From Prodigiosinella confusarubida (GTDB taxonomy: Bacteria; Pseudomonadota; Gammaproteobacteria; Enterobacterales; Enterobacteriaceae), in NCBI RefSeq assembly GCF_002847015.1, contig NZ_CP025085.1:1364001-1428000 (forward strand): a stretch of 64,000 nucleotides of DNA, in the 5' to 3' direction. Below the pieces are notes generated by a model. The model saw only the letters and a program-made list of their open reading frames with translations, had not been told where the DNA came from and searched no databases. Positions 2,538 through 46,388 of the stretch are shown piece after piece (within the stretch, counting starts at the first letter, position 1; every line of letters starts with the position of its first letter). The position numbers and the translations under genes were made by a program.

Positions 2538-3710
2538 ATGAAACTGAACCGATTACGTAACACCCTCTGTTTGCTGACAATGTGTCTGGTAAGTGCTTCA
2601 TTGATGGCTAACGACAAGGATTACCAAACATCCGCGGTTACTGAAGACGCGTTGCCAACGTTCTATCCGCAACTCAAGCAGCAGATGACTTATTCAGACT
2701 CTTGGCTGTCTGGGCACGATAAGAATTTCAGTCAGTGGAAAGTACAGTCACGAAATAAGGTTCGTGCATTGTTACTGACGCCGGATTCCAGTAAAGCGTT
2801 TGATCCGCAAATGGTGGATCAACAGGATCGCGGCAGTTATAAAGCTGAAAAAGTGGCATTTAATCTGACAGACGAGAGCCGAGTGCTCGGACTGCTACTC
2901 ATCCCAAAAACACCTGGCCCTCATCCGGCCGTGATTTTGCTGCATGACCATGGCGCGAAGTTTGATATCGGCAAAGAGAAAATGATTAAGCCATGGGGGG
3001 ATGAAGCACAACTGACGTCGGCGCGGGCATGGGCAGATAAATATTTTACTGGCCGATTTGTGGGTGACGAACTGGCCAAGCGTGGTTATGTGGTGTTGGC
3101 AGTGGATGCCGTTGGCTGGGGGGATCGTGGGCCGTTGAAATATGAGCAGCAGCAGGCGTTGGCCAGTAATTTCTTCAATCTGGGACGTTCACTGGCGGGA
3201 ACGATGGCGTATGAAGATATGCGAACGCTTGATTTCCTTGCCTCGCTGAAACAGGTCGACCCGCAACGTATTGGCATCGTAGGTTTTTCGATGGGCGCGT
3301 ATCGTGCCTGGCAATTGGCGGCGTTGTCTAACAAAGCCGCCGCAACAGTAGCGGTTTCCTGGATGGGAACCTACGAAGGGTTGATGACACCAGGCAACAA
3401 CGTATTGCGTGGTCAGTCGTCGTTTTACATGCTACATCCAGGATTGTCATCCTATTTCGATTTCCCTGATGTGGCCAGTATTGCCGCTCCCAAACCGATG
3501 TTAGTCTTCAACGGTGGCAAGGATAAACTCTTCCCCGTCAGCGCGGTAGAAGCCGCTTATGACAAAATGCACCGAGTCTGGCGTTCACAACATGCCGACG
3601 ACAAGCTGGAAACACGTATCTGGCCGGAATTAGGGCATGTGTTTTATCAGGAGCAGCAGGATGTGGCTTTCCAATGGTTGGATCGTTGGCTGATGCCGGA
3701 GAAAAAGTAG
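2538..3710 (+). CDS. Exported alpha/beta hydrolase of the dienelactone-hydrolase/esterase type
   Basis: The product is a predicted periplasmic or secreted alpha/beta-hydrolase of 390 residues. ATG 2538 is chosen because it directly starts a signal peptide (MKLNRLRNT, hydrophobic core, cleavage near SLMA-ND) and lies 8 bases after GGTGAG. An upstream in-frame ATG at 2523 would only lengthen the leader. The nucleophile elbow is GFSMG (GxSxG) near residue 255. The acid is probably in NGGKDKLFP and the His in ELGHVF near the C-terminus. HDHGAK near residue 138 fits the oxyanion region. It sits alone between lpd and acnB, a place where enterobacteria vary. Substrate is unknown; an esterase acting on plant-derived acylated sugars is only a guess. 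Confidence 0.75.
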   Translation: MKLNRLRNTLCLLTMCLVSASLMANDKDYQTSAVTEDALPTFYPQLKQQMTYSDSWLSGHDKNFSQWKVQSRNKVRALLLTPDSSKAFDPQMVDQQDRGSYKAEKVAFNLTDESRVLGLLLIPKTPGPHPAVILLHDHGAKFDIGKEKMIKPWGDEAQLTSARAWADKYFTGRFVGDELAKRGYVVLAVDAVGWGDRGPLKYEQQQALASNFFNLGRSLAGTMAYEDMRTLDFLASLKQVDPQRIGIVGFSMGAYRAWQLAALSNKAAATVAVSWMGTYEGLMTPGNNVLRGQSSFYMLHPGLSSYFDFPDVASIAAPKPMLVFNGGKDKLFPVSAVEAAYDKMHRVWRSQHADDKLETRIWPELGHVFYQEQQDVAFQWLDRWLMPEKK

Positions 3711-4176: not shown

Positions 4177-6774
4177 GTGCTAGAAGAATATCGTAAGCAC
4201 GTAGCCGAGCGGGCTGCACAAGGGATCGTTCCTAAACCATTAGACGCCGCACAGATGGCGGCATTGGTGGAATTGCTGAAGAATCCTCCCGCTGGTGAAG
4301 AAGCATTTTTAGTCGATCTGTTAGTCAATCGCGTTCCGCCGGGTGTTGATGAGGCGGCCTACGTCAAAGCGGGTTTCCTGGCCGCCATCACCAAGGGTGA
4401 AGCCGTGTCTCCCCTTATTACGCCGGAAAAAGCCACCGAACTGTTGGGTACCATGCAGGGTGGATACAATATTCATCCACTGATTGACGCGCTGGAAAAC
4501 CCCACGCTGGCGCCCATCGCCGTCACGGCGTTGTCTCACACCCTGTTGATGTTTGACAACTTCTATGATGTGGAAGAGAAAGCCAAGGCTGGTAATGCTT
4601 ACGCCAAACAGGTGATCCAATCCTGGGCGGAGGCCGAATGGTTCCTGTCTCGCCCGGCGCTGGCAGAAAAAATTACCGTGACCGTTTTCAAGGTGACGGG
4701 AGAAACCAACACTGATGACCTGTCTCCGGCACCGGATGCCTGGTCCCGTCCCGACATTCCGCTGCATGCTCTGGCGATGTTGAAAAATGCCCGTGACGGC
4801 ATTGAGCCGGATCAAGCCGGCGTGGTGGGGCCCATCAAACAGTTGCAGGCGCTGGATCAGAAAGGGTTCCCGCTGGCTTATGTGGGCGATGTGGTGGGAA
4901 CCGGCTCGTCCCGCAAATCGGCCACCAACTCGGTGCTGTGGTTTATGGGAGACGATATCCCCAACGTCCCGAACAAACGCGCTGGTGGCGTGGTGCTGGG
5001 GGGTAAAATCGCGCCGATTTTCTTCAACACGATGGAAGATGCGGGCGCATTACCGATTGAAGTCGATGTTGCCAAACTGAATATGGGCGACGTGATTGAC
5101 ATTTACCCCTACAAAGGGGAAGTGCGTCATCATGATACCGACGCGCTGTTGGCGACCTTTGAACTGAAAACCGACGTGTTACTCGACGAAGTGCGTGCCG
5201 GTGGACGTATCCCGTTGATTATTGGCCGTGGGTTGACCACCAAAGCCCGTGAATCGCTCGGGTTGCCGCCCAGCGAGGTCTTCCGTATCGCCAAAGCGGT
5301 CGCCGCCAGCAGCAAAGGCTTCTCGCTGGCGCAGAAAATGGTGGGGCGCGCCTGTGGCGTGGCCGGTGTTCGTCCGAACGAATATTGCGAGCCGAAGATG
5401 ACGTCGGTGGGGTCGCAGGACACCACCGGTCCGATGACCCGTGACGAGCTGAAAGATTTGGCCTGCCTCGGTTTCTCGGCGGATCTGGTGATGCAGTCTT
5501 TCTGTCATACCGCCGCCTACCCGAAGCCGGTTGATGTCACCACACACCATACGCTGCCCGATTTCATCATGAACCGTGGTGGAGTGTCGCTGCGTCCCGG
5601 TGACGGTATCATCCACTCCTGGCTGAACCGGATGCTGCTGCCGGATACGGTCGGTACCGGAGGGGATTCCCACACCCGTTTCCCGATAGGCATTTCTTTC
5701 CCGGCGGGGTCGGGGCTGGTGGCGTTTGCGGCGGCGACAGGCGTGATGCCGCTGGATATGCCGGAGTCGGTACTGGTGCGTTTCAAAGGCAAAATGCAAC
5801 CAGGTATCACGCTGCGGGATTTGGTGCACGCGATCCCTTATTACGCCATTCAGCAGGGGTTGCTGACTGTCGAGAAGAAAGGCAAGAAAAACATCTTTTC
5901 CGGCCGTATTCTGGAAATTGAAGGGTTGCCGGATCTCAAGGTCGAGCAGGCGTTTGAACTGGCGGATGCGTCTGCCGAGCGTTCGGCGGCGGGTTGCACC
6001 ATCAAACTGGACAAGGCGCCGATCATCGAATATCTCCACTCCAACATCGTCTTGCTGAAGTGGATGATTGCCGAAGGTTATGGCGACCGTCGCACGTTGG
6101 AGCGTCGTATTCAGGGGATGGAAAAATGGCTGGCGGAGCCGACGTTGCTGGAAGCGGATGCGGATGCGGAATACGCCGCGGTGATCGAGATCGATTTGGC
6201 GCAAGTCAAAGAGCCGATTCTGTGCGCGCCGAACGATCCGGATGACGCCCGTCTGTTATCTGATGTGGCGAACAGCAAGATTGATGAAGTGTTCATCGGC
6301 TCCTGCATGACTAACATCGGTCATTTCCGGGCGGCGGGGAAATTGCTGGATCAGCATAAAGGTCAGTTGCCGACCCGGCTGTGGGTGGCGCCACCGACAC
6401 GGATGGATGCCGCGCAGTTAACGGAAGAAGGCTACTACAGCGTGTTTGGCAAGAGCGGTGCGCGGATTGAAATCCCCGGTTGTTCGCTGTGCATGGGGAA
6501 TCAGGCACGGGTGGCGGAAGGGGCGACGGTGGTGTCCACGTCGACGCGTAACTTCCCGAACCGTTTGGGTAATGATGCGAATGTCTATCTGGCGTCAGCG
6601 GAGCTGGCGGCGGTTTCCGCGCTGTTGGGCCGTTTGCCGATGCCGGAAGAGTACCAGACCTACATGGCACAGGTGGATAAGACCGCGGGCGATACCTATC
6701 GTTACCTGAATTTTGACCACTTACAGCAGTATACGGAAAAAGCGGATGCAGTGATCTTCCAGACTGCCGTTTAA
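4177..6774 (+). CDS. acnB: Aconitate hydratase B
   Basis: AcnB converts citrate to isocitrate (and 2-methyl-cis-aconitate to 2-methylisocitrate) and is the main TCA-cycle aconitase during exponential growth. The 865-residue length equals E. coli AcnB. The N-terminal HEAT-like domain precedes the swivelling domain, the arrangement specific to AcnB. The three 4Fe-4S ligands are visible in [10 protein letters not shown] and CSLCMGN near the C-terminus. GTG at 4177 gives MLEEYRKH as in E. coli, behind a strong purine-rich ribosome site. A strong terminator follows, so it is monocistronic. Apo-AcnB is known to bind mRNA in relatives; nothing here tests that. Confidence 0.98.
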
Positions 6775-7269: not shown

Positions 7270-7456
7270 AATATCCGATAGTAATACAGTGCGAAGTGGA
7301 ACCTCACTAGCAAGGTCGGGCAGTCGGGAAATGGCAAGAGTCTCTGGCACCAGAGCAGAGTGTAGTAGGCTGTTGTCGGTGTTGAAGCGTTGCAGGTCGT
7401 GGGTCACAAACCACACTTATTGTCGCACGATCGGTATAGTTAATGACAATACTGAA

Positions 7457-36111: not shown

Positions 36112-36164
36112 ATCGTATTTGTAACGCAATGGCATGCCTTCGGGATATTGGTGTTGGGTTTTTT

Positions 36165-36724
36165 ATGCTGATGTTTAAACGTATAACCGCAACCCTGTTG
36201 CTAGCGAGCTGTGCCGCCGGTGCTGCGACATTGACAATCAGGCTCCTCGTTCTATTCAACTGGCGATGGTACTCGTTTGGAGCAGTTTTACACACAGAAG
36301 GCGCTACCCGGGAATGTAAACTGGCAAACGGCTTTGATTACTCAGGCTTCCATCGGTTTCCGTGATATCGCGGGTAGCGGGCTGTTTGACAGTGAATATG
36401 TGGTGAGCAGTAAGCGCTTCGGGGCTTTTGATTTCACTATGGGCATCGGCTAGGGAAACATGGCCCAACGCGGCAATATCTCCAATCCGTTCTGTTCAGT
36501 GTCCAACCGTTTTTGTTCTCGGGACGATAGTTTCAGCTCATTGCCTCGTGTACGCACCTGGATATGTGAATATGTCACTTCATCAGATGTGTTGTTAATC
36601 TACAGTTGAACCGCCGTGACCAGTTGGCTCAGGGGGATATAGCCAGATATATGGTGGCTATCTGGAGATGATGTATGCCGGCGTTGGTGGTGAAGTATAC
36701 CGTGACCAGGTCCGTGGTGAGTAA
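36165..36724 (+). pseudogene. yjbH: Remnant of a YjbH/GfcD-type outer-membrane polysaccharide gene
   Basis: A lipoprotein-like leader (ATG 36165, lipobox LASC) is followed in another frame by GFRDIAGSGLFDSEYVVSSK, which matches the RDIGGTGLFDSEY block of YjbH. That frame has an in-frame TAG at 36451 where relatives have Trp (GMGWG), then continues with GNISNPFCS and NRFCS. A third stretch near 36635-36724, GYLEMMYAGVGGEVYRD, is again YjbH-like but in another frame. At least one stop, frameshifts and deletions make it non-functional. YjbH belongs to exopolysaccharide/group 4 capsule export operons. Confidence 0.7.
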
Positions 36725-37422
36725 CCCTGAACCTTTATGCCATTTTGCATGAACATATAGCGCTATTAATATTTTTTAGCTTGGTTATTTATTGGTTGCG
36801 GCCATCTTCATGAATTGCAAAATATTAGTATTGTGAGTATGGATAATACTAAAGCATAAGATAATGATAATATGTTGATATTAAATTATTTTTTATCTGT
36901 TTAAGGTTTAATTATCGGTAATGCACGGGATCATGGAGAGATGCTTTACGAGCCATTTTTAAATTAAAGTTTCATTAAATTCAGTGTTCATTTATCGTCA
37001 GTTTTTATTAAATGAGATAGTGGTTTATTTTTTGATCCGTTATTTCGGTGGTTTGCGTTGTAGTTTTTTCTCATTCATAAGTAACCTATACGATGTATAA
37101 GCACCTTTTAAATGTAGATGTTTATTGATTAATGAATGCTATCGTTAATACAATAGCCGCTAGTCTGACATAAACGGTTCCATATACAGGGAGTATTGCA
37201 ATACATCAATGCCCGTAGTGAGTGACATTGCAAGAGATAGGTTATTTTTCAGATTCTTTTTAATGTTTCTCTTCATATGTGTCATTTTTACGCATTTATT
37301 TTTGCTTAGAGGGTGTTATTTTTCTTGGTACTGACTGATATCTGGCATTGTTTTTCATCATTAAATTAAATAACATGATGATATTAAATTATTTTTACAG
37401 GAATGGACCATTTCGTAATGGA
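36725..37422. other. AT-rich gene-free stretch before the polysaccharide locus
   Basis: About 700 bp of low-GC sequence with no convincing gene. TGATATTAAATTATTTTT occurs twice, at 36876-36893 and 37379-37396. The promoter for the JUMPstart transcript should be in the 3' half. Confidence 0.5.
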
Positions 37423-37460
37423 CAGTGAATTGGTAGCTGAAAGCCAAGGGCGGTAGCGTG
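37423..37460 (+). promoter_or_regulatory. JUMPstart element with ops site (RfaH recruitment)
   Basis: The 38-bp segment follows the JUMPstart consensus: CAGTG, then TGGTAGCTG, AAGCCA, and the ops core GGCGGTAGCGTG at 37449-37460. RfaH loads on paused polymerase at ops to prevent early termination in long LPS/EPS operons. A CTACCT-agaa-AGGTAG hairpin (37467-37482) follows directly and overlaps the ribosome site of the broken wecA-like gene. Confidence 0.9.
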
Positions 37461-37485
37461 GCTGGGCTACCTAGAAAGGTAGGTC

Positions 37486-37829
37486 GTGATAGTGATAATC
37501 GCTATTCTTTGAGTGTTTGCCTGCGTGTTTGTGATGCTTTTTGTCGTGCGTAAAGTTGCAAAGAAAATAGGGTTAGTTGACAAACCGAATAGTCGGGAAA
37601 AGCCTCAAGGACACGTCCCCCGGGAGGAAGGAATCTCGATCTCTACCTATCGCTATGGGTGATTTTCGTTTTTCATGCCAACTCCCCCCTTTCCTTTGAC
37701 ATCTACATGCCATGTGGCAGCGGATTGCTGATAATCGGTATCCTTGATGATCGCTTCGATCTCCCAGTCCTTTCTCGTGTTGGATTGCAATCGTTGATAG
37801 CAGTAGTATTGATGCTGTGTGCCATCTGA
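37486..37829 (+). pseudogene. Broken WecA-like polyprenyl-phosphate sugar-1-phosphate transferase
   Basis: Frame 1 from 37486 reads VIVIIAIL, a TGA, then an N-terminal WecA-like segment including ARKVAKKxGLVDKPN-type VRKVAKKIGLVDKPNSREK and ends at TGA 37660. From about 37695 a different frame gives GLLIIGILDDRFDLPVL, the conserved LDDRFD acidic motif region, ending at TGA 37829. Two stops and a frameshift, plus loss of about two thirds of the gene, show it is dead. It would have started the lipid-linked glycan encoded downstream. Confidence 0.75.
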
Positions 37830-38025
37830 TGGTGCTATTTTTGATGAAAAACAGGTGAAGTAAACACGAAGTATAGTGATTAGTGACGTAATGAGCACTC
37901 TATTTGGTTATGCTAATGCTGTATTATGTCTCAATGTATTCAATGATAAAATGCTTACTAATATTATATTTTTTATGGAATGTTATTGTTTTTTATTTTT
38001 TATATGCGACTGAGAAAATAAAATA

Positions 38026-38904
38026 ATGAAGATAGGAATTGTTGTTGTATGGTATAAGCCTACACTAGAACAAATCAATAATATGAAGAATATTGTAGGC
38101 AACAATCAATTTAAAATATGTATTGTTGATAATACACCAGATGTGGATAATGTTTTTTATTTTAATGAGTTGTTAGCGAACGGAAATAATTATTATATAT
38201 ATAATGGAAACAAAGGCGGTATTGCTGGAGGATTTAATCGTGGGGCGGAAAAGTTATTTGAAGATAGCGATGTAGATTATTTCTTCACTATGGATCAGGA
38301 TTCCTCTCTAACTTCTGACTTTTTCCTGGGAATGTATTCATTCTGTAAAGAGAAAAAATCAGAGATATCCTGCCCTAATTTTTATGATAGAAATGCTAAG
38401 GTCTATGGCAGTTTTGTTTTATTGACTCCCTATTTTTATAAAATATCTACAGATGGCACTACGAACTTCTGTATCTCCTCTGGGATGTGTATTTCTCGTC
38501 GTGCATGGGAGCTGGTAGGTCCATTTGATGAGTCATTAATAATAGATCATGTTGATACAGCATTTGCTCTAAAGGCATTAGTATTTGGGTTTATTATAAA
38601 GGTTAATTATGATGAATGTCTTAACCATGCCATTGGGGAAAGAGAGGTTCATAAGTTATTTGGCATTACAGTTAAACCTAATCATCATAATTACATAAGA
38701 AAATATTACATAGTGAGAAATGGTTTTTATTTGTCTTTTAAATATTTTAAAGAGGCTAAAGGATATTTTAATTTAAATGTATTAAGGGTAATGCATGAGT
38801 TTGTTTCTGTTATTTTCTATGAAAAAGATAAAATAAGAAAAATTAAATATATGCTTAAAGGTTTGCTCGATGCTGTAAGGGGGAAACTAGGTGATATTAA
38901 ATAA
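38026..38904 (+). CDS. Glycosyltransferase family 2 (rhamnosyltransferase-like)
   Basis: A 292-residue GT-A transferase. The nucleotide-sugar/metal motif is MDQDSS near residue 91, the substrate and base region is DESLIIDHVDTAFALKA, and GNKGGIAGGFNRG is a typical GT2 segment. It belongs to the RfbN/WbbL-like rhamnosyltransferase group, inferred from MDQDSS. The gene is much AT-richer than the surrounding chromosome, as O-antigen/EPS genes usually are. It is the first intact gene after the ops element and overlaps the next gene by 14 bp. Confidence 0.8.
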   Translation: MKIGIVVVWYKPTLEQINNMKNIVGNNQFKICIVDNTPDVDNVFYFNELLANGNNYYIYNGNKGGIAGGFNRGAEKLFEDSDVDYFFTMDQDSSLTSDFFLGMYSFCKEKKSEISCPNFYDRNAKVYGSFVLLTPYFYKISTDGTTNFCISSGMCISRRAWELVGPFDESLIIDHVDTAFALKALVFGFIIKVNYDECLNHAIGEREVHKLFGITVKPNHHNYIRKYYIVRNGFYLSFKYFKEAKGYFNLNVLRVMHEFVSVIFYEKDKIRKIKYMLKGLLDAVRGKLGDIK

Positions 38905-40111
38905 AATTCCATTCCTCATCTTAAGTATAAGTAGTTTACTCGCATCTCTTTTTTTACAATTTTATTTCGCTAATCTTTTTTCTAGCCAATTGATTAACTT
39001 ATTTTATATGGGAGTAACTGTATGTGGTGTTGTGATATCTATGTCTACAAGTGGAATAAGCAGTTACTTGATTTCTGAGTTTTCTTCGATAAAGGATAAT
39101 AAGTTAGATATAAAAAATGCAGCAACATCATTTCTTATTTTTTTTTCTATCCTGGGTATATTAGTTTTCTTGTTTATTTATATCGTTGGGTGCTATGTTT
39201 TAAATATTAATGAGTGGGCAGTGCTGTTTTTTTCTTTTTCATTTTTTATTTACTTCCTATCACTGGCTATCGGTATAGTTTTTCAATCTTACGCATATTG
39301 TCATTCCAGAACTAAAGGCGTTTTGTCTTATGAAGTGTTGAACTTTTTTTCATTTCTTATTGTTATTTGTATTTTTTATACTATGAAGTCTAATGAGATG
39401 TTATTTTATTTCATTTTTTGTATCAGAAGTCTAATTCAAATAGCAATTTACCTAGTTCTCATTAGACATGATTTGTCAGCGAGTAAGTTTTCTTTTGAAA
39501 ATTTTTTATATTTCGTTAAAAGTGTCAGAGTGATCATTGGCGGTAGTGCATACTATAAATCAGAGCCTGTCATAGATAGGTTTTTTATTATTAGTAATAA
39601 TACAGGGATTGCTGTATATCATCTGGTTTCTCAAATATATACTGCGGCTCTTGGTGTATGGTTTAAAGTGTATGTGTCGCCTCTAATTAAAGAACTTACT
39701 ATCAATAATAACAATAAAAAAATATTCAATGAGATTTATTTCCATGGATTGAAAAAACAGATTTATTTTGCATTGCTCTGTGGTTTTTTAGTCTTTTTTA
39801 CACCGATGATCGATTACATTTCAAGAATAAAAATATTTAAAATTCTGTCTGATGGTAACGATATAATTACAATCCTATTTTTCTTCTTTGTGTCCGGGCT
39901 ATTAGGGCAAGTTATATCGAATGTTTTTTACTGTGTGAATAAACATTCTATCCCAGTTGTTGTATCTTGTATAACTTTCACAATATTTTTACCTCTTAAG
40001 TATGTCGTTACACATAAATGGGGAGTAGAAGGATTATGTGTTTTGGTAGCCTTATATCATTTTGTCAATGTTACTATTCTATTTTTGATAAGTTTAAGGT
40101 TTAGACACTGA
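38891..40111 (+). CDS. Wzx-like polysaccharide flippase
   Basis: A 406-residue, very hydrophobic protein with about 12 predicted helices and few charged residues, the profile of an O-antigen/EPS repeat-unit flippase of the MOP superfamily. GTG 38891 overlaps the glycosyltransferase end, indicating coupling. Sequence signatures of Wzx are weak, so the call rests on topology and neighbours. Wzy (polymerase) is less likely because no long periplasmic loop is evident. Confidence 0.65.
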   Translation: MILNKIPFLILSISSLLASLFLQFYFANLFSSQLINLFYMGVTVCGVVISMSTSGISSYLISEFSSIKDNKLDIKNAATSFLIFFSILGILVFLFIYIVGCYVLNINEWAVLFFSFSFFIYFLSLAIGIVFQSYAYCHSRTKGVLSYEVLNFFSFLIVICIFYTMKSNEMLFYFIFCIRSLIQIAIYLVLIRHDLSASKFSFENFLYFVKSVRVIIGGSAYYKSEPVIDRFFIISNNTGIAVYHLVSQIYTAALGVWFKVYVSPLIKELTINNNNKKIFNEIYFHGLKKQIYFALLCGFLVFFTPMIDYISRIKIFKILSDGNDIITILFFFFVSGLLGQVISNVFYCVNKHSIPVVVSCITFTIFLPLKYVVTHKWGVEGLCVLVALYHFVNVTILFLISLRFRH

Positions 40112-40114
40112 AAT

Positions 40115-41164
40115 ATGAAGAAAATATTAGCTATTACTTCAGGAAAAAATACACCGTCGAGTAGATTTAGAATAAGACAGCATATTGACGGGCTTAATAA
40201 GAAAGGATTCTATGTTACTGAGTCATGTCCACCTATAGATAAAAATAAATCTGTTCCTTTTTTAGGAAAGTATAATCCTAGATTCTATCTTCCAATATAT
40301 TTTGTATGGCAGATAATTAAAATTTTACAACGTATTTCGATTATTTTCAGAAGAAAAAAATACGACTATGTATGGCTAAATAGGGAACTACTCACTGGGT
40401 ATTACACCCTGGAAGGGTTTTTGGGAGAAAAGGTTATATTGGATGTCGATGATGCAATATGGAAAAATCCACCTTTTGGCTCTTTTGCTGCAAAAAAAAT
40501 AGCCCAACGATCGTATGCTATAATTTGTGGGAATGATTATCTTGCCGAGTGGTTTAGGCAATATAATAGTAATGTATATGTTATACCTACATCTGTGAAT
40601 GTTGATAAATACAAACCAAGAGCTGTAGAATATAAATCTGATATTATTACTTTAGGTTGGATTGGTACTCATGGAAACCTGAAGTATGTCAAATTAATTA
40701 GCTCTGTGTTGGAAAATATACTATCTAAATATTCATTTGTAAAAATTAAAATTGTATGTGATAAGAAATTTGATTTTATTAATAATAATGAGTCTGTTGA
40801 GTACGTAGAGTGGTCTGAGATTAATGAAATAAAAAATTTCCAATCAATTGATATCGGATTAATGCCCCTTGATGAAGATGAATGGACGAAAGGAAAGTGT
40901 AGTTTCAAATTGTTACAGCATTTATCTTGTGGGAGTATGGTAGTCGGAAGTCCTGTTGGAATGAATAAGAATATTCTTCTGGGCAATGTCAATGGTGCTT
41001 ATCCTGCAACATCAACTGATGAATGGTTTGATATACTATCGTATCTTATAGATAATTATGAAGAATATCGAGATATTTATAAGTATAAAACTCGTGACTT
41101 TATTCTGGAAAATTATGCGTCAGAGAAAATTTTAAGTGAATTGATACGGGTGTTCAATGACTAA
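40115..41164 (+). CDS. Glycosyltransferase, GT-B fold (GT1/GT4-like)
   Basis: A 349-residue cytoplasmic transferase. The N-terminal segment TPSSRFRIRQHIDGL, the middle LGWIGTHGNLKYVK and the C-terminal CSFKLLQHLSCGSMVVGSPVGMN are typical of a GT-B glycosyltransferase. It starts 3 bp after the flippase stop and overlaps the next gene by 8 bp. AT-rich like its neighbours. Donor and acceptor are unknown. Confidence 0.75.
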   Translation: MKKILAITSGKNTPSSRFRIRQHIDGLNKKGFYVTESCPPIDKNKSVPFLGKYNPRFYLPIYFVWQIIKILQRISIIFRRKKYDYVWLNRELLTGYYTLEGFLGEKVILDVDDAIWKNPPFGSFAAKKIAQRSYAIICGNDYLAEWFRQYNSNVYVIPTSVNVDKYKPRAVEYKSDIITLGWIGTHGNLKYVKLISSVLENILSKYSFVKIKIVCDKKFDFINNNESVEYVEWSEINEIKNFQSIDIGLMPLDEDEWTKGKCSFKLLQHLSCGSMVVGSPVGMNKNILLGNVNGAYPATSTDEWFDILSYLIDNYEEYRDIYKYKTRDFILENYASEKILSELIRVFND

Positions 41165-42284
41165 CGTAATTATGGTATTACCTCGCTATTTCCCTATATT
41201 AGGCGGTGCGGAGGTTCAGTGCAGTAGATTAATAAAAGCATTTTCTACTGACCCGAATGTTAACATTGTTGAAGTTGTTACAAGGCGACTAACTCCTTTG
41301 TTGAAAAAAAATGAAATAATTGATGGAGTAAGAATAAGACGGCTGCCTCCATTTGGCACAGGCGTACTTGCTGAGTACTTTTTTTGCATTATTTTATTTT
41401 TTTATTTACTCTATAAATCAAGAAAATATGATGTTATTCATTGCCATGCAACGTCTATTTTTGGGCTTGTTGTTTCTATCGTTGGCCTTCTTCTGAAGAA
41501 AAAAGTAATAGTTAAAGTGTCAACAAACGGCGAAGTCAATGCAATGAATAGTAGTAAAATAAAGAGCCTGATTGCATCAATATGCTCAAAAAGAACTATT
41601 TATGTTGCATTAAATAATGAAGGATATCAGGAAACAATAAAATTTCTTCCTAAAAAAAATGTTGTACTGATCCCTAATGGCATAGAACCTTATCGTTTTG
41701 ATAATAACGACTGTGCGCAGCATTTTAGAAAAAAATTAGAAGATGAGTATGGTAATGATCTCTGTGTATGTTTATTTATTGGTAGATTTGTGATTCGAAA
41801 AGGTATTGTTGATATCTTGAGTGTTGCGGAGCGATTGGAGTCAAAAAGTAATTTTGTTTTTGTCTTTATTGGCGATTCTTCATTGCAACGAGACGCAGAA
41901 AGTTTTGATAAATTTTCAAATTTGAAAAATGTACAGTTTTTAGGCCGAAAAGATAATGTATTTCCATATTTAGTGGCTGCTGATTTTTTTATATCTCCTT
42001 CATATAATGAAGGACTTCCGAATACGGTTCTTGAAGCATTGTCTTGTGGGGTACATTGTATTTTATCTGATATATCGCCACATGAAGAGCTTAGCGTTGA
42101 ACATCCTGAATATATCTCTCTATTTAAAAAAGGAGAGGTAAGTGATTTGGAAAATGTCTTAGTGAATAATTATAACGTGTTAACTCAAAAGAGCTCATTT
42201 GATGATAAAAAACCGGGTGTTTTGAACGAAAAGTACTTAATGAACAATGTGGCTGAAAGTTATTCTAATTTATATAGAAGCTAA
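41157..42284 (+). CDS. Glycosyltransferase family 4
   Basis: A 375-residue GT4 retaining transferase. Family features: GGAEVQCSRL near the N-terminus, IPNGIEPYRF, GRFVIRKGIVDILS, and the donor-binding EX7E-type stretch SPSYNEGLPNTVLEALSCG. It is the last gene of the ops-led cluster, followed by about 100 bp without a gene and a convergent ABC operon. AT-rich. Confidence 0.85.
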   Translation: MTNVIMVLPRYFPILGGAEVQCSRLIKAFSTDPNVNIVEVVTRRLTPLLKKNEIIDGVRIRRLPPFGTGVLAEYFFCIILFFYLLYKSRKYDVIHCHATSIFGLVVSIVGLLLKKKVIVKVSTNGEVNAMNSSKIKSLIASICSKRTIYVALNNEGYQETIKFLPKKNVVLIPNGIEPYRFDNNDCAQHFRKKLEDEYGNDLCVCLFIGRFVIRKGIVDILSVAERLESKSNFVFVFIGDSSLQRDAESFDKFSNLKNVQFLGRKDNVFPYLVAADFFISPSYNEGLPNTVLEALSCGVHCILSDISPHEELSVEHPEYISLFKKGEVSDLENVLVNNYNVLTQKSSFDDKKPGVLNEKYLMNNVAESYSNLYRS

Positions 42285-42391
42285 GATCTAAACGTCAGCC
42301 ATGTCTGCGACAGCAGTAAAATCTTTACGCTGCTCATCATTCTTTTTAAACATCTGAAAGCCAGTTATCGTTGGGCTAAGGCCACACACGA

Positions 42392-43057
42392 TTAATCAAA
42401 CCTGGCGTATTTCTTCTCAAGCCTGGAAGACAGCCAGCTTCCTGGATAAATCACCAGGAAATAGATCACTGCTACGCAGGTAAATATTTCGAACGGCTTG
42501 TAGAATGCGGCGCTTAGCAGGCGTCCTTGGTACATAATCTCATGGACCGCAATGACCGAACAAAGCGAAGTCATTTTTGCTAGTTCTATCCCTCGGTTAG
42601 TGAATGCCGGAAGCATCCGCTTGAATACCTGAGGAAAGATAATACGTTTCAAGATTTGACTACGGCGCATCCCCACGGCCTTGGCACCTTCCCATTGGCC
42701 ACGGCTAATGGAATGAATTCCACTTCGGTATATCTCCGTACAGTAAGCGGATGTATTCAGGGTAAGACCCAGGACCGCAGCCTCAAAAGCGGTCATTTGA
42801 TAGCCTGTGAGTACTGGCAATGCGTAATAAAACCAAATCAACTGGATGAGAACCGGCGTATTGCGAAACACCTCGACATAGGCAATGGCGGAGATGTTCA
42901 GCAGTTTGTTAGATGACGTCCTGGCGAGCCCAAGTAACCCGCCTACGGCCATACCAATAGGGAAGGCTACCAACCATAACTGAATTGTCATGTACACTCC
43001 TTTGAGGAGTACGGGTAAGCTCTCTAATGTAACCGCCATATCCCATGAAAAGTGCAT
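42392..43057 (-). CDS. Polar amino-acid ABC transporter permease
   Basis: A 221-residue HisM/GlnP-type permease. The motif YVEVFRNTPVLIQLIWFYYALP at the N-terminal third (key residues EVFRNTPVL) and GAKAVGMRRSQILKRIIFPQ (EAA loop) define the family. It is the last gene of a six-gene leftward operon, 11 bp after the sister permease. Confidence 0.93.
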   Translation of the reverse strand: MHFSWDMAVTLESLPVLLKGVYMTIQLWLVAFPIGMAVGGLLGLARTSSNKLLNISAIAYVEVFRNTPVLIQLIWFYYALPVLTGYQMTAFEAAVLGLTLNTSAYCTEIYRSGIHSISRGQWEGAKAVGMRRSQILKRIIFPQVFKRMLPAFTNRGIELAKMTSLCSVIAVHEIMYQGRLLSAAFYKPFEIFTCVAVIYFLVIYPGSWLSSRLEKKYARFD

Positions 43058-45599: not shown

Positions 45600-46388
45600 T
45601 CAGAAATGGAAAGCGGTGAAGCGCTTGATAAATTCTTGGGTTTTCTCTTTCTGGGGGGACTTCAAAACCTCTTGAGGAGTGCCTGCCTCATGAAATTCTC
45701 CATCAGCGAAAAAGATAACCCTGTTAGCAAAATGATAGGCAAAACCCAGTTCATGCGTTACCAGGAGCATTGTCCGTCCCTCATCCGCCAACCCATTAAT
45801 GACGTTCAGCACTTCACCCACCAATTCAGGATCAAGGGACGAAGTAGGTTCATCAAAGAGTAAAATCTCAGGTTCCATTGCCAAAGCCCGTGCAATTGCA
45901 ACCCGTTGCTGCTGCCCACCTGAAAGCCGGGTCGGATATGCATCGTTTTTTGAATTCAAGCCCACATTGCCAAGCTCACGGAGCGCGATTTCACGTGCCT
46001 CGGCTTTGCTTTTTTTCTTCACCTGTATCAGTCCTTCCATGACATTTTCTAACACCGTCATATGGGGAAACAGGTTGAATTGTTGGAACACCATCCCGAC
46101 TTTTTTGCGTACCTCGCAGAGATCGCGCTCAGGATAGGACATGAATACTTCGCCATCGCTGCCGCGTCCGGTCTCCTTTCCAATAACCTTTCCATCAAGC
46201 TTGATCATGCCAGTAGTGGGCGTTTCCATGAAGTTCAGACAGCGCAGCATGGTGCTTTTACCTGATCCACTCCCTCCGATGATGGCAATCCTATCGCCTT
46301 TTTTAACGTCGAGATCTACGCCTTTTAAGACATGAAAATCGCCAAATTTTTTGTGCAGACAAGAAATGCTCATCAATGTTTCAGACAT
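45600..46388 (-). CDS. Polar amino-acid ABC transporter ATPase (GlnQ type)
   Basis: A 262-residue ATPase with Walker A GGSGSGKSTML, signature LSGGQQQRVAIARAL, Walker B ILLFDEPTSSLDPE and H-loop VTHELGF. It is the second gene of the operon, behind the GntR-family regulator gene and before the aminotransferase. Confidence 0.95.
   Translation of the reverse strand: MSETLMSISCLHKKFGDFHVLKGVDLDVKKGDRIAIIGGSGSGKSTMLRCLNFMETPTTGMIKLDGKVIGKETGRGSDGEVFMSYPERDLCEVRKKVGMVFQQFNLFPHMTVLENVMEGLIQVKKKSKAEAREIALRELGNVGLNSKNDAYPTRLSGGQQQRVAIARALAMEPEILLFDEPTSSLDPELVGEVLNVINGLADEGRTMLLVTHELGFAYHFANRVIFFADGEFHEAGTPQEVLKSPQKEKTQEFIKRFTAFHF

Follow-up and report, generated by a model that had tools for sequence, protein, structure and literature searches.

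Group 4 capsule clusters in Dickeya that are led by a JUMPstart element and carry wza-wzb-wzc also hold yjbEFGH, whose role there is uncertain according to the account given in PMC7877592. A second wecA, glycosyltransferases and a flippase lying outside the main capsule locus make up EPS2 of Serratia marcescens UMH9, the function of which is unknown, in the description given by PMC9000132. We analysed a 64,000-nucleotide stretch of Prodigiosinella confusarubida (referred to as the window; positions 1364001–1428000 of the 4.97-Mb single-contig genome G000), in which a JUMPstart/ops element precedes a remnant of wecA and four intact glycan genes. The locus is probably what is left of a group-4-like capsule or exopolysaccharide locus that was initiated by wecA and controlled through RfaH and JUMPstart, and that stood beside a yjbEFGH-type export operon, away from the yegH slot of most of its relatives. 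It is an ordinary kind of locus in unusual disrepair: a decaying relative of the JUMPstart-wecA capsule loci with a yjbEFGH neighbour.

The likeness to the Dickeya clusters, as far as PMC7877592 outlines them, consists of the JUMPstart at the head, yjbEFGH within the locus (in the sister strain), a putative flippase together with glycosyltransferases and a G+C content unlike that of the genome. Unlike these clusters, the window has no wza-wzb-wzc, the locus is not at yegH, the initiator is a pseudogene and yjbEFGH is in pieces. EPS2, which resembles the locus by description, differs in its wza, wzc and wzx homologues and in its unbroken WecA (outlined in PMC9000132). We did not class the locus as a working group 4 capsule locus because, in this strain, yjbEFGH is present only as fragments and wza-wzb-wzc is missing from the window. 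A third comparison is by mode only, in which the locus would be alike. The outer core of Yersinia enterocolitica O:3 is assembled as a single block: its cluster works, and a lipid-linked unit is joined to the core with no polymerisation. The outer core is given as a hexasaccharide in PMC7316996.

The JUMPstart element and the truncated wecA

The JUMPstart was a complete match to its Rfam model (model positions 1–38 of 38; gathering score 35) and the sole Rfam match over threshold within the window (Table 1). A preliminary description, made from the letters alone, had named a clear JUMPstart/ops site, and the match fell exactly there. The element was identical in the sister strain of the same species (G001), the only other strain compared. 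It stands at the head of a glycan operon, as is characteristic of group 4 and O-antigen capsule loci. The ops 12-mer was rejected as evidence on its own: GGCGGTAGNNTG occurred 18 times in the genome vs 26 times for a reversed control pattern. Rfam gave no match over threshold in six other loci of the genome (the ops sites at 3.93 Mb, at 2.11 Mb and at the flagellin locus included). A megablast search of Escherichia coli matched 4 of 5426 genomes, over 40 bases covering the JUMPstart. The promoter scan was uninformative (31 found vs 31.3 expected), and the terminator scan gave 3 vs 2.2 expected by chance. At the end of the wecA remnant (37819–37835), and thus between the JUMPstart and the first glycosyltransferase gene, is a hairpin that resembles a terminator and has a T-rich tail. 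Just upstream of the JUMPstart, an AT-rich direct repeat of 27 bases (36867–36893 and 37370–37396; 93% identical) flanks about 0.5 kb.

Two pieces of wecA in different frames follow the JUMPstart. They were found by tblastn with the genome's own WecA of the enterobacterial common antigen (ECA) type (361 residues). The catalytic residues of WecA lie in its last two thirds. No match to these two thirds was found at the remnant, and there was no full-length open frame. The remnant is a truncated pseudogene and not a gene with a few lesions. The preliminary description of a wecA-like gene broken by stops and a frameshift was right about the breakage (one stop, two frames) and missed that only the first third is left. 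The sister carries the same truncation, stop and frame break, plus one further indel. As the truncation is shared, it is older than the split of the two strains. A sequencing error, proposed earlier as a possible refutation, is very unlikely for the same reason and was set aside. A search near the remnant for hidden wza, wzb or wzc or for the rest of wecA returned only the remnant and three stray hits (E 0.018–0.082).

The remnant is unlikely to derive from the ECA-type wecA of the same genome. Its second piece scored 56.6–61.6 bits (44–63% identity) against 14 second wecA-like proteins of other genera vs 42.7 bits (36% identity) against the genome's own ECA-type WecA. Identity separates less well than bits, as some housekeeping-type copies reached 45–59% over short stretches. 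In fetched genomes with two copies, the better copy was clearly ahead: 52.9 vs 41.0 bits (G367), 50.3 vs 35.9 bits (G240) and 49.8 vs 31.8 bits (G189). The second piece was matched in 275 of the 392 family genomes at E 0.001. This sample counts in the genome itself and the sister strain, and the species is the sole representative of its genus.

The best 15 matches to the wecA remnant outside the species, from the 392 genomes searched, served as comparison loci (L073–L087). A JUMPstart over the Rfam threshold was present in all of them except L085, an ops core upstream of wecA in all 15 and wecA directly behind the JUMPstart in 13. From ops to the VDKP motif, window and sister both measure 127 bases, and 13 of the 15 loci 128–137 bases. 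In the other two the distance was 2448 (L078) and 2661 bases (L073), with galU-like genes in between. The window resembles these loci in its order, JUMPstart and then wecA, at nearly the same spacing. Because of this spacing, the remnant is, judged by position, the operon's own lost initiator: it occupies the place of the first gene in such operons. The loci differ from the window in that wecA has a full-length frame in 14 of 15 and wza-wzb-wzc is present in 12 of 15. The same 12 carry yegH, and the remaining three carry gnd. No match to wza, wzb, wzc, yegH, gnd or galU was found in the 64 kb of the window, meaning that the operon lies away from the yegH slot of its relatives. In L086 (genome G317), wecA is broken near 3559 and wzc is split near 6274; an assembly error is possible there.

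Table 1. Features of the locus, with positions in the window
Feature	Positions	Strand	Evidence
Remains of the yjbEFGH (gfcABCD-type) export operon	36161–36703	+	tblastn/blastn with the intact genes of the sister
JUMPstart element	37423–37460	+	Rfam RF01707, 59.9 bits, E 2.9e-11
ops core (12 bases)	37449–37460	+	Inside the JUMPstart
wecA remnant, first piece (WecA residues 1–53)	37483–37641	+	tblastn, 45% identity; one in-frame stop
wecA remnant, second piece (WecA residues 70–113)	37692–37823	+	tblastn; frame differs from first piece
GT2 glycosyltransferase, rhamnosyltransferase-like	38026–38904	+	PF00535 over cut-off
MOP-type flippase, MurJ-like (putative)	38891–40111	+	Via a plasmid protein matching MurJ
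Glycosyltransferase, GT4-like	40115–41164	+	PF13692 23.3 bits and PF13439 17.2 bits, both below cut-off
GT4 glycosyltransferase	41157–42284	+	PF13692, PF00534 and PF13439 over cut-off

Remains of yjbEFGH and the four glycan genes

The sister has the locus at 98.7% identity over 36702–42400. Between its JUMPstart and a set of transporter genes, which by eye are sit-like, the yjb genes are intact. Their proteins matched PF11102 (YjbF/GfcB; 212 bits), PF20616 and PF06251 (GfcC) and PF06082 (YjbH; 886 bits); a yjbE-like frame of 115 codons was identified by eye. In the window, only pieces of this gfcABCD/yjbEFGH operon are left, amounting to about 0.5 kb: residues 3–70 of yjbG and residues 139–206 and 506–564 of yjbH. 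The preliminary description had missed them. Four stretches of the sister, of about 1.8, 1.0, 0.9 and 0.55 kb, are missing. The kept pieces are 87–95% identical to the sister and the flanks about 98%. The screens for yjb genes covered the window with 18 other loci of the genome itself and, separately, 87 loci outside the sister strain (the 15 wecA loci among them); apart from overlaps of this very place, the 87 loci held none. The pairing of yjbEFGH with this operon is thus suggested by one sister strain and by the Dickeya precedent. An export role for proteins of the GfcD/YjbH type has been proposed and not proven, as set out in PMC8592465. Beside the cluster lies an ABC-transporter ATPase gene (45600–46388) that is intact in the window; the sister's copy is broken by several stops and a gap of one base.

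The four genes behind the remnant are intact open frames with a G+C content of 0.31, 0.29, 0.31 and 0.33, while G+C is mostly 45–55% across the window. The earlier call of four intact AT-rich genes (29–33% G+C) held; the flippase call had no direct family support. The first protein scored 154.8 bits against the rhamnosyltransferase model TIGR01556, below the cut-off of 200.55. The putative flippase has about 10 hydrophobic segments and no direct Pfam or NCBIfam match and no meaningful PDB match. It is 23% identical over 91% to a Providencia/Citrobacter plasmid protein (tblastn, three plasmid records), which in turn matches MurJ (PF03023, 42.9 bits) and was the best of 26 membrane proteins compared with the putative flippase. 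An AlphaFold model from the single sequence reached a pLDDT of 49. The third protein matched phrog_7162, a glycosyltransferase (E 2.2e-14). A search of genome contigs for relatives of the fourth protein gave 15 loci, at 23–39% identity, and was uninformative.

In Pfam and NCBIfam, the four proteins matched no family of polymerases, ligases or nucleotide-sugar enzymes, in line with what had been described. Wzy polymerases are poorly conserved. We also looked for the insertion site by way of a neighbouring binding-protein gene: it was matched in 98 of 147 genomes, the best match outside the own genome had 28% identity, and no ortholog was recognised.

Between the strains, the four genes showed no stop and no gap. 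Stops in the sister would have spoken against intact genes; they were looked for and are absent. Silent and replacement changes numbered 2 and 4 in the GT2 gene, 9 and 2 in the flippase gene, 10 and 6 in the third gene and 1 and 4 in the GT4 gene. Pooled, this gave 22 changes in 890 silent sites vs 16 in 3376 replacement sites (Fisher p 5.9e-7). When 38 changes were placed at random 20000 times, the number of silent ones always stayed below 22. Taken together across both lineages, the four genes look selected.

These counts bear on a clearly less probable, though possible, explanation, namely that the locus as a whole no longer functions in this strain and that the four genes are intact only because the loss of initiation and export is too recent. 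The dead wecA in both strains and the fragmented yjbEFGH in this one fit such a history. The absence of stops says little against it, as 20% of the simulated sets had none either. The GT2 and GT4 genes have no silent excess when taken alone, and the silent-change signal of the flippase gene and the third gene may stem from the sister's branch. Against a dead locus stand the pooled silent excess and its absence from all of the simulations, the unchanged JUMPstart and the contrast with the wecA remnant, which took 17 base changes and one indel in 373 bases (37488–37860) while the four genes took no indel. The earlier suggestion of a decaying locus that recently lost its function was therefore correct as to decay. 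Recent loss was not borne out because the truncation of wecA predates the split of the strains and the four genes look selected when pooled.

Silent divergence was 0.004–0.049 in the four genes, and 0.078–0.104 in four of five flanking genes (0.010 in the fifth). The lower divergence in the four genes than in most flanks hints at recombination.

Supply from the genome and the reading of the locus

Both strains have two PF00953 genes, which were read from their neighbours as MraY (1330 kb) and the WecA of ECA (830 kb). The latter is an intact frame of 364 codons beside a Wzz-domain gene and rho (rho named by eye), and it could supply lipid-linked N-acetylglucosamine (GlcNAc), as the preliminary description had proposed for a chromosomal wecA. 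Of the two alternatives offered there, supply from elsewhere and decay, both have some support, and they are not mutually exclusive. The gene rfaH was found over cut-off at 216.6 kb. RmlC (PF00908) is encoded at 4.75 Mb; its neighbours were named by eye as rml and man genes and an ABC exporter, and the NCBIfam matches of the exporter were below cut-off. One PF04932 gene in the core region of the lipopolysaccharide (LPS), at 392 kb, is a waaL candidate with no NCBIfam match over cut-off. A polymerase for this glycan was not found, PF04932 with its single match being the only family sought genome-wide for this purpose. The genome thus has a starter, dTDP-rhamnose genes and a ligase candidate away from the locus. 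Genes of the gfcE-etp-etk or wza-wzb-wzc type are present in a separate locus at 2.11 Mb, and absent from the window. This locus also holds the only PF02397 initiator, and its wzc carries one of the two Wzz domains of the genome, the other being the one beside the ECA wecA.

The relict reading leads to the following course. By the time the strains split, only a third of the operon's own wecA was left. Losing the rest was probably tolerable, as the WecA of ECA would make the same product, undecaprenyl-pyrophosphate-linked GlcNAc (Und-PP-GlcNAc). If the locus is still active, it would depend on that enzyme. RfaH would join RNA polymerase at ops and enable it to read through the dead wecA and on into the four genes. 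The three glycosyltransferases would then extend the lipid-linked GlcNAc, and the putative flippase would turn the unit outwards. With no polymerase recognised at the locus and the export operon fragmented in this strain, any product would be either a short unit that another enzyme ligates or a dead end. Undecaprenyl phosphate is tied up by incomplete lipid-linked units, as reported in PMC11784914. An operon that is expressed to no purpose would therefore be costly, so that either a product or silence would be favoured.

Several points weigh against the relict reading. The GT4 and GT2 genes, taken singly, show no constraint. The capsule type and the ECA type of wecA are told apart on about 50 residues only. 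The yjbEFGH neighbour is known from one sister strain; the fetched stretches of the 15 loci from other genera contain no yjb genes, and wza, wzb and wzc are absent from the window. In the portion of PMC7877592 considered here, the Dickeya clusters are not described as wecA-led. Moreover, the second and third proteins have no relatives in the other 390 family genomes, bar one weak match (third protein, E 1.4e-4; none for the second). Hence, an origin of the payload in the JUMPstart-wecA kind of locus is conjectural.

An unlikely reading has the four genes build a short oligosaccharide without polymerisation, on the Und-PP-GlcNAc of ECA, for ligation to lipid A-core as a single block. The parts would be at hand: the intact ECA-type wecA, the dTDP-rhamnose genes including rmlC, which suit a rhamnosyltransferase-like GT2 protein, and the waaL candidate. 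Selection against an expressed dead-end pathway, given the sequestered carrier (as reported in PMC11784914), would also be in its favour. No product is known, however; the ligase candidate and the rhamnosyltransferase model lack support over cut-off, and the genome's O-antigen locus of the ABC-exporter kind (transporter models below cut-off) would compete for the core. We are equally doubtful of a wider form, in which the RfaH operon, bereft of its initiator and in this strain of the neighbouring export genes, would persist under selection because it builds a short non-polymerised glycan on the ECA lipid intermediate. A MurJ-like flippase, distinct from the usual Wzx families, would move this glycan across the membrane, and it would be joined to LPS or another acceptor. 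That the operon forms one glycan pathway with a lone glycosyltransferase gene at 3.93 Mb, split over the chromosome, is very improbable: an ops site with a JUMPstart-like flank does precede that gene and sugar genes, with a yegH-like gene on the other side, but the site is below the Rfam threshold and the family matches behind the gene's name are below cut-off.

If the relict reading holds, the locus is a case of stepwise decay of a capsule-type locus. The redundant initiator went first (in both strains), the export operon next (in one strain), and the sugar-building genes are intact. Such a sequence of losses agrees with the view that an operon can do without its own wecA as long as the WecA of ECA is present. 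Moreover, the link between yjbEFGH and JUMPstart operons would become testable by comparing two strains of one species, of which only one has yjbEFGH intact next to the shared glycan operon.

Other ops sites and the RfaH paralogue

The site at 3.93 Mb (L036:7027–8162) is the yegH slot of the genome. Behind the ops site stand a single AT-rich glycosyltransferase gene, putatively WbbL-like, and then epimerase-, ugd-, galU- and gnd-like genes, with the yegH-like gene on the other side. By its gene content, the slot is a nearly empty O-antigen/capsule slot.

At 2.54 Mb (L033:3295–11254), two giant glycosyltransferase-like frames (1260 and 1174 amino acids) lie between a flagellin-like gene and sugar/methyltransferase-like genes. 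An ops core with a JUMPstart-like flank below the Rfam threshold stands at 7429 of this locus, before the second giant frame. Flagellin glycosylation at this place is possibly under RfaH.

At 2.87 Mb (L034:201–13140), two adjacent copies of a unit of about 6.8 kb have the same listed proteins, and each contains the same ops 12-mer. By eye, the unit comprises a phage-like regulator, primase-like and integrase-like frames and then a VENN-type C-terminal piece. The second contig of the sister (G001:C2:39165–39632, L042) encodes an RfaH paralogue with 138.6 bits, just below the cut-off of 144.5.

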